Below are positions 55,770-58,700 of a DNA stretch of 64,000 bases, in pieces. Origin of the DNA: Lethocerus indicus (taxonomy: Eukaryota; Arthropoda; Insecta; Hemiptera; Belostomatidae). A model generated the notes under the pieces. That model saw nothing but the letters and a program-made list of their open reading frames with translations, did not search any database and was not told where the DNA came from. The position numbers were made by a program, and so were the translations under genes. How positions within the stretch are numbered: the stretch's first letter is position 1; each line of letters opens with the position of its first letter. The DNA lies in contig JACDQD010000102.1 in NCBI GenBank assembly GCA_019843655.1, positions 9,929,501 through 9,993,500 of the forward strand, written 5' to 3'.

Positions 55770-58700
55770 ATGTTAAGACAAGTTTTAAGGTATTAAATTT
55801 AATCGCATTATATGTTATGCATACATTGGGAATGCAAATGTTTTGAGCTAATTACAGGATTTATACTTATGTAATTCCTATTTCAGAGTTTTTCTTTCAA
55901 AGCGATGCTACTCGAGTAATTCAGAAATCCAACGGATATATGCAAGGCAAATATTTGATTCACGGGGTAATCCGACCGTTGAGGTAAGGCGATAGATTTA
56001 TCTGTAATATTTTAGAACAGGGTCTATTTTTCAGATCTAACTAACAAAACGGGTTGTTTCCCGGCTCTTTGCTGATCGTTTTAAGCCCGTTCGATTATGT
56101 TATCTGATAATATCGGTCTTTCGTCTGGTTGAAAAGGTCGACGCCCAGACGAACTCGGGTTTCTTCAGAGCCGCGGTGCCTTCGGGCGCTTCGACAGGAG
56201 TTCACGAGGCTTTAGAACTGAGGGACAAAGGAAAAGGCTATCATGGCAAGGGTGTTGCCACAGCCGTCAATAACATCAATAGCATCATTGCTCCGGCAAT
56301 TATAAGTAAGGTGCGAGATCACACTCAAACTAACACTTCCAGTTCTGGCTTGTTGTCTTTATTTAAGAAAGAAAAATGCAATTAATGCTCTTAGAAATCA
56401 GTAATTTATAATTTCCCCATGAACATTGCATTAAAATCATTGGATTACATCAGGGATATGAAGACACTTTTACCATTTCAAGAATCATATTTTGATGACA
56501 AATTTAGTGAAATAAATCCCTCCTGAACATAAATTAGGTCGGTTCGGCCAAGTATAACCGCGTCCTCATGATATTGATTCACATAGAGTGAACAAATATA
56601 AAATTAAGCCAATATGTCTGCCATAAACCGATTTATTGCTAGTTCCCGCCCGTACACTGTTGACAGGGCATTTGTCCATCCAATCAAGAAGAGATCGATT
56701 GTTTCATGAAACAACTCGATGGAACGGAAAACAAATCCAAGCTGGGGGCCAATGCGATACTTGGTGTATCTCTGGTCATGTGCAAGGCCGGTGCTGCGAA
56801 GAAGGGAATCCCACTGTACAGGTGTATATTGTACAAATGACCCGAACGTTAGGTTGTGACAAATTTAGACAAATAATATATTACTGTGAGAGACTTGTTC
56901 CAGGCACATAGCCGACCTCGCCGGCACGGAGACCTTGGTCCTTCCCGTGCCTTCTTTCAACGTCATCAACGGCGGTTCCCACGCCGGAAACAAGCTCGCC
57001 ATGCAAGAATTTATGTTGCTTCCTACCGGTAAATAAATTTAATTAAACTCGAAGTGTCGGGTTATTTTATAATTATAAATTTGTGTACCACATCGCAGTT
57101 CCTCACGGGCTTCCTTGTTCAAATTATATAAACGTTTTTTAAAAATTATAATTAATCTATTCGCACCTTCAATCCATACACAATAAAATATTTACAGCCA
57201 ACAATATATTACCTACCTGGCATATACAGATGAACCTTAGAAACTTATGGGTTTTTCCAATTGGCCGATAGGAGGATAATAAAGCAGTCAAAATATGTAA
57301 TTATTGTCGACAGTAAATGTAGGTTGTTTGGATAGATTTATTTATTTATTACTCGTTTGTCTATGCAATATATTTGACACGTTTCACGTTGTTGGTCAGG
57401 AGCGAAATCGTTCACCGAAGCAATGAAAATGGGTTCCGAAGTTTACCACCACCTGAAGATAGTGATTAAAGAGAAGTTCGGTCTGGACGCTACGGCTGTC
57501 GGCGACGAGGGCGGGTTCGCGCCCAACATCCAAGACAACAAGCAGGGCCTGCTGCTGATGGTCGAGGCCATCAAGAGGGCCGGCTACACCGGAAAAATCG
57601 AGTTCGGAGTCGACAGCGCCGCGTCCGAATTCCACAAGTTATTAACCAACACCATTCCTTCTCCAACATTTAACCGGCCCTGTACTCATTTTGAATAATT
57701 TCACACCGGCCAGAATCTATGAGATTCCTTCCACCTTCCTCCAGCCCATATTTTATCATACGTAGGAGTGATATATTCTTCTTACCGAACCGCACGACTA
57801 TAACCGATTCGGATAGAATAAAGTAGGTACGCCTTTCGTGTTCGGCTATGCTTTTGAGATAATTGAATCCGAATGACTGATTCGGTTGAAGGAGATCGCA
57901 ATATAAAACCACTCGAGCGCTAGATTAATACCTAGGTTCGGGTTTGTAAGATTTATCAAGATAATATTTTACGATATTGTTGTAATATTCAATTAACATT
58001 TAATCACTCCTAATGTTTATTTTAGGGATGGTAAGTACGACTTGGACTTCAAAAACCCGAAATCCGACAAAAGCAAAATGTTGACGGAAGATCAAATGGT
58101 ACAGATGTACATGGACTTCATTCAGGAATTTCCGATAGTATCGATTGAAGATCCTTTCGAACAAGATCATTGGGACGCCTGGATCAAAATGAATTCTAAA
58201 ACCAAAATCCAGGTGATGTATTCGAACTTATATCTCTTGACTGTATCCTTTATTCCGTCGCAATATAGGATTGAAGATCCATATATATAATTTCATTTCA
58301 ACTGATTTAGATCGTTTCTTGCGTTAGATCGTAGGTGATGACTTAACAGTTACCAATCCGAAAAGGATTCGGACGGCCATCGATAAGAAAGCATGCAATT
58401 GTCTGCTACTGAAAGTGAATCAAATAGGAACAGTGACCGAATCTATCGAGGCCCACTTGCTTGCCAAAGAGAACGGGTGGGGGACGATGGTCTCCCACAG
58501 ATCGGGAGAAACGGAGGACACTTTCATTGCCGATCTTGTTGTCGGTTTGGCCACTGGACAGGTATCGCTTTTTAAATAGTCAAGCATAAGATTCGAACTA
58601 CAGATAAATCTGTTGAGGAATACGTTAACAAAATATCTGTTAATCGGTCGTTTTATTATCATCTTGGAATTGCTAGATAACTCAGTTGTGATATATCCGA

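Follow-up and report, generated by a model that had tools for sequence, protein, structure and literature searches.

Two enolase genes, Eno1 and Eno2, lie one behind the other in the 64,000-nucleotide stretch of Lethocerus indicus DNA analyzed here (hereafter the window), and the second has no start codon at the position where animal enolases begin. Where does the Eno2 protein start, and to which compartment would its N-terminus direct it? Animal glycolysis is cytosolic in textbook accounts, and to our knowledge presequence-bearing enolases are known from protists only. An earlier note on this DNA proposed that Eno2 had been re-targeted to mitochondria by a leader exon that it had gained. The explanation that we consider fairly probable keeps the destination and not the gain. 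Eno2 would be a functional old duplicate with a presequence on its only full-length product, its leader would derive from an old optional leader of insect enolases, and its cytosolic start would have been lost.

Two tandem enolase genes and a missing start codon

Eno2 consists of nine open coding exons in which internal stops are absent, its introns are all GT-AG, and the 451-aa product put forward for the spliced frame was obtained again in our analysis (Table 1). The protein matches the Enolase_N and Enolase_C domains and the TIGR01060 equivalog (E 5e-149 and 7.9e-162). The nine active-site motif blocks that were sought were all found in Eno2, as they were in Eno1; the assignment of Mg2+ and substrate residues to these blocks is the one that we presume to hold for enolases. 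Judged by its domains and motif blocks, Eno2 is an enolase (phosphopyruvate hydratase). An identity with ENOSF1 was considered and rejected, since Eno2 matches the enolase equivalog model.

Table 1. Features of the window, with positions counted from its first nucleotide. A slash marks a splice junction, a split codon or a predicted cut.
Feature	Position	Strand	Remarks
Dinucleotide array (AG)32	16316-16379		
Dinucleotide array (TA)42	22787-22869		Imperfect
Alpha-amylase gene	~43583-47560		Directly upstream of Eno1; Alpha-amylase_C match 47264-47431; other exons recognised by eye
Candidate alternative Eno1 first exon	48212-48233	+	MLKRTLF; phase-matched; donor TCT/GTAAGT
Candidate donor end, non-coding Eno1 first exon (cytosolic form)	48976-48981	+	GAGCAG/GTAATGG; predicted from sequence
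Open frame from Eno1 splice acceptor to ATG	49245-49267	+	[x]GT-R-H-F-S-E-I-T
Eno1, canonical enolase	49268-54427	+	8 coding exons; 433 aa + stop; tandem neighbour of Eno2
Eno1 coding exons	49268-49330, 50134-50310, 50726-50880, 51882-52006, 52291-52528, 53440-53626, 53901-54134, 54305-54427	+	
Eno2 gene	55770-58897	+	9 coding exons; 451 aa + stop
Eno2 coding exons	55770-55789, 55887-55983, 56137-56310, 56667-56821, 56904-57028, 57400-57637, 58026-58212, 58328-58561, 58772-58897	+	
Eno2 candidate leader exon 1	55770-55789	+	MLRQVLR, last codon split AG/A; closest ATG exon in a compatible phase; donor GTATTA is weak
Eno2 leader intron	55790-55886	+	97 nt; acceptor AG at 55885-55886
Eno2 exon 2, leader part	55887-55920	+	11 residues; predicted MPP-type site RCY/SS; SKR-Y-S matched in Ranatra P0006
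TCA (Ser19) at ancestral start-codon position	55921-55923	+	Cytosolic start lost
HLH-domain gene	within 59765-63998		Downstream of Eno2; HLH match 59765-59956

Matching exon lengths indicate that each of the seven Eno1 introns has an equivalent in Eno2, and an alignment of the two proteins shows 341 identical residues among 432 (79%). Between the two genes pN is 0.138 against a pS of 0.854, the latter being saturated beyond correction. The duplication is therefore old and both proteins are under purifying selection, which means that Eno2 is not a decaying copy; on these values and the zero stops, a pseudogene was rejected. The genes differ in composition at third codon positions (GC3 0.57 in Eno2 versus 0.42 in Eno1). 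The pI of the enzyme core is 5.92 for Eno1, 6.39 for Eno2 and 7.17 for a Ranatra orthologue, with a median of 6.07, a shift that is suggestive only as support for a mitochondrial location.

The missing cytosolic start and the open frame upstream of it, as originally observed, are both present. Ser19 of Eno2 occupies the column of the Eno1 start Met, and the frame stays open from there to the splice acceptor of exon 2, the first in-frame stop further upstream being a TAA at 55849 within the intron. The next Met after Ser19 is residue 111, so that no full-length enolase can begin at an ATG inside exon 2. Eno1 retains the canonical Met expected of an insect enolase made in two forms and Eno2 does not.

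The candidate first exon and the leader peptide of Eno2

A 20-base exon with a GTATTA donor, joined in frame across a 97-base intron to an exon 2 beginning at 55887, had been proposed to supply the start; all of these coordinates were reproduced, and the A at -3 of its ATG is there. This exon is the sole phase-compatible ATG exon candidate within 200 nt in the real sequence. We scored its splice sites with a matrix trained on the window's 14 remaining enolase introns, the leader intron being outside the training set. The donor (4.96) and the acceptor (6.84) both fall under all of these introns, which have donors of 5.4-12.2 and acceptors of 7.3-13.4. Of 2000 control pieces of 200 nt, 70 contained a phase-matched ATG exon that has a donor as good and encodes an acid-free peptide with a net charge of 4 or more. 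When the search was widened to 1.4 kb and at most one acidic residue was allowed, a comparable first exon was present in 165 of 400 controls, and the real stretch holds two. The strength of the candidate exon by itself is modest. Another possible first exon, at 54579, has a better donor, yet it lies just 152 nt beyond the Eno1 stop and was rejected.

The predicted leader peptide of 18 aa has a net charge of +4 with zero acidic residues. It is amphipathic and carries an R-x-Y/S site, which we take to be an MPP-type cleavage site, all in agreement with the initial description except that Arg and Lys number four (R3, R7, K12 and R13) instead of five. By sequence match, this site directly precedes an enzyme of mature length. 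For comparison, 484 ATG-started 18-aa peptides were drawn from the parts of the window that lie beyond the two enolase genes, in a test that assumes the use of exon 55770-55789. The charge of the leader was reached by 49 of them, its basic and acid-free character by 27, its hydrophobic moment by 9 and an MPP-type motif, R-x-[YFLWI]-[ST], by 10; all leader features together were reached by none (0/484). Random ATG-started peptides from this DNA are basic on average, 68% of them being net positive. The Eno2 leader is probably real, and its sequence makes a mitochondrial presequence the likely reading.

The leader in Ranatra and on other insect enolases

Homologues were collected by three protein searches, each returning the best 120 of 7997, 7997 and 7996 scored proteins, which gave 175 different proteins. 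As only the best 120 are listed per search, the breadth of insects seen here is a sample of the closest matches. The strongest independent evidence for the leader is one of these homologues, from Ranatra chinensis, presumably a water scorpion. Its model, P0006, is partial (437 aa, N-terminus SKRFYSEVQSIRARQIYDSRG), and its start, SKRFYSEVQSIRARQ, shows the same leader end as Eno2 (SKRFY/S), again without Met. The alignment places Ser at the ancestral Met column in both proteins. Conservation of the leader in relatives had been proposed as a check on the mitochondrial reading, and it can be followed over the five leader residues visible in this model, four of which are identical, the first exon lying outside it. 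In a tree of 46 rows (Eno1, Eno2 and 44 homologues hand-picked from the 175), P0006 and Eno2 are grouped with a support of 100/99. Their next relatives are Lygus and Cimex, at 85/85, which is under the star threshold of the tool; this placement points to a true bug as the source of the window.

The lack of a start Met is rare among the listed homologues. Excluding P0001, P0002, P0003, P0004, P0005, P0007, P0008 and P0142 from the count, Met is missing at the canonical column in 3 of the 167 non-fused homologues listed, and two of these have Met two residues later. P0006 is thus alone among the 167 in having no Met either at the canonical start or up to two residues away from it. The loss of Met combined with a retained leader end in two diverged species indicates that the leader is probably in use.

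The leaf beetle proteins P0069 (Phaedon) and P0086 (Leptinotarsa) have a short extension rich in Lys and Asn, and the Met of their start region is shifted by two residues. In P0005, a fused enolase model of Aphis glycines, the canonical start column of the second unit is occupied by Thr (NKTPISKIEARS), after a long upstream stretch. This unit is possibly another Met-less enolase, or else a model artefact.

Upstream extensions of at least 4 aa are found on 48 of the 175 listed proteins, and the other 127 are without one. Models in which such an extension precedes a retained Met come from mayfly, dragonfly, thrips, bugs, psyllids, beetles, flies, butterfly and stick insect, which we count as eight insect orders. 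Long leaders are seen on Drosophila enolase models among the matches listed. Seven fused or concatenated models (P0001, P0003, P0004, P0005, P0007, P0008 and P0142) were dropped before the leaders were counted. The motif test was run on 36 of the 41 remaining leaders, those of at least 10 aa, the five shorter ones being left out. The net charge is positive in 33 of the 36. The motif R-x-[YFLWI]-[ST], which was chosen post hoc after inspecting the leaders, lies within the last 20 leader residues of 12 of the 36, where shuffling gave 3.1 on average (0/5000 shuffles). With one row per lineage it is found in 8 of 25 against 2.2 expected (11/10000). Among the leader ends are those of thrips (..LIRQYSTSK-MPIKS), Lygus (..TRYYSK-MPITC), Kerria (..LSRSYSTIK-MPITK), Diaphorina (MSIKQVFVRFYSSVR-MPISK), Carabus (..CRRFTTIT-MPLQS), Popillia (..FRSYFTRN-MPIKS) and the mayfly Cloeon (..GSRPLST-MPLQS). 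Counted by eye, the predicted cut falls 0 to 8 residues ahead of the canonical start in the motif-bearing rows. The eight motif-bearing lineages belong to four orders (Coleoptera, Thysanoptera, Hemiptera and Ephemeroptera), and the strict motif is absent in 24 of the 36 leaders, the rows of flies, dragonfly, stick insect and butterfly being among these. Some of the 36 are under 16 aa, and to the author's eye the leaders of P0115, P0122 and P0140 are not presequence-like.

Long and canonical-length entries are both listed for Cimex (P0052 and P0059 vs P0112), for Diaphorina (P0161 vs P0143) and for Callosobruchus maculatus (P0094 and P0103, respectively). The extended forms P0154, P0033, P0027, P0102 and P0040 lie on contigs of 1.7-4.2 kb, which may be transcripts. 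As in Eno2, the extension of such isoforms (Cimex X1/X3, Anopheles bellator X1, Drosophila, Diaphorina) stands directly upstream of the canonical start. They retain the canonical Met, so both a long and a short form are possible from them, which is not the case for Eno2.

Origin, destination and setting of Eno2

In the explanation that we favor, the ancestral gene would have had an alternative first exon spliced onto the exon with the normal start, and would have yielded both a cytosolic product and one bound for mitochondria. Once the gene had been duplicated in tandem, the cytosolic start would have been retained by Eno1, perhaps along with the optional leader, and Eno2 would have lost its internal cytosolic start to become a dedicated mitochondrial enolase. 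Eno2 would then be made as a 451-aa precursor and imported via TOM/TIM23. Removal of the leader by the processing peptidase would leave a 436-aa enolase of near-canonical length in the matrix, where it could interconvert 2-phosphoglycerate and PEP. As for the proposal of re-targeting by a gained leader exon, the presequence is supported by the composition of the leader and by the Ranatra orthologue; extensions ahead of a retained Met in several insect orders speak against the gain. A newly gained leader is probably the wrong description, and the change in Eno2 looks like the loss of the internal cytosolic start. More generally, winged insects might make a mitochondrial enolase via an optional leader exon, with a separate start-less gene in this true-bug lineage, a reading that we stop just short of holding probable. 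The confinement of the strict motif to four orders slightly lowers the likelihood both of the explanation favored here and of this extension to winged insects in general.

Does Eno1 carry a trace of such a leader? A putative first exon encoding MLKRTLF lies upstream, and the spliced long form would read MLKRTLFCRHF/SEIT. Its donor is the best of 7 on a generic splice matrix and poor (0.8) on the window's own. Among control pieces a donor as good was present in 230 of 400, with charge and acid count matched too in 97 of 400; 6 of 574 null peptides matched all the features of the Eno1 leader. Taken on the sequence, 48212-48233 is a tentative candidate for an Eno1 first exon, not significant by itself.

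It is unlikely that the duplicate acquired its leader exon anew, so that a formerly cytosolic enzyme was re-targeted. Such a gain would fit the fact that the DNA of the Eno1 and Eno2 leader exons aligns no better than chance (an equally good alignment was reached by 260 of 300 shuffles), that the two leader introns differ in phase (1 nt being needed in Eno1 and 2 in Eno2), and that the Eno1 leader exon is a mere candidate. It is harder to reconcile with the R-H-F-S in frame immediately upstream of the Eno1 ATG and with the extensions before a retained Met across many insect enolase models, though the strict motif is found in four orders only. We also regard as improbable that Eno2 encodes a cytosolic enolase specific to a tissue such as testis, with a true first exon elsewhere that gives a neutral N-terminus, the basic leader being an accident of AT-rich DNA. 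Testis-biased paralogues are indeed described for Bombyx (BmEno2; PMC5237310) and Tribolium (TC011729; PMC8438054), the splice sites of the leader are weak, and a stretch of 1.4 kb often contains such an exon by chance. However, exon 2 supplies SKRCYSSN under any first exon, Ranatra retains SKRFY without Met, and expression in testis is compatible with a mitochondrial location. That Eno2 is unexpressed or decaying and has merely lost its start codon is very improbable and, given the selection signature, nearly excluded, as the absent canonical ATG is set against nine open exons, intact motif blocks, the low pN relative to pS and the same Met-less state in Ranatra.

The closest known systems are found in stramenopiles, which according to excerpts of two papers have mitochondrial lower-glycolysis enzymes, including a presequence-bearing enolase (PMC3527533, PMC6198282). 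Like the Eno2 product proposed here, that enolase is described there as eukaryotic-type with an N-terminal mitochondrial leader, cytosolic forms being present alongside it in most stramenopiles studied. The same sources report leaders on several glycolytic enzymes of the C3 half, whereas enolase alone is considered here, and in an animal. A mitochondrial C3 half is called exclusive to stramenopiles in a passage of one of them (PMC6198282), and a Tetrahymena enolase is said in the other to have an obvious targeting signal (PMC3527533). BmEno2 and TC011729 are, as presented in their main texts, lineage-specific enolase duplicates like Eno2; they are described as testis-biased, and the string 'mitochondri' occurs 0 times in either main text (PMC5237310, PMC8438054). 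ENOSF1 ('mitochondrial enolase superfamily member 1') belongs to the same superfamily and is mitochondrial in name. It differs from Eno2 in that it is described, in the portion of the source concerned, with a role in L-fucose catabolism and not as a 2-phosphoglycerate enolase (PMC8120901). In the passages of the arthropod papers in PMC that use the term, 'mitochondrial enolase' means ENOSF1 or, once, a tick protein with MR_MLE domains. We found in the PMC literature neither a report of a mitochondrial isoform of insect enolase nor a discussion of the localisation of the extended insect isoforms; prior notice in subscription journals or database notes is possible.

If the explanation holds, a dedicated mitochondrial enolase, together with optional leaders in several orders, would mean that 2-phosphoglycerate/PEP chemistry takes place in the mitochondria of insects. 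On the reading extended to winged insects, an animal lower-glycolysis compartment would so far have been overlooked. Possible partners of a matrix enolase are mitochondrial PEPCK for PEP and glycerate kinase for 2-phosphoglycerate, which is conjecture. The enzyme might handle PEP from the former or 2-phosphoglycerate from the latter, or it might moonlight. The locus would, in addition, clearly exemplify how a duplication can divide the two destinations of one gene between two genes. The optional leader across insects is of larger interest than the single Eno2 gene, and since Drosophila already has extended enolase models, the idea can be tested directly there.

The enolase pair is flanked by an alpha-amylase gene, three other pieces of which gave no Pfam match, and by an HLH-domain gene. 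A long low-complexity open frame, also with no Pfam match, starts at 60501 and extends past the end of the window. Rfam and tRNA scans of the 64-kb window returned 0 matches each. The GC content is 0.36-0.45 over the first 40 kb and 0.26-0.31 at 44-56 kb.
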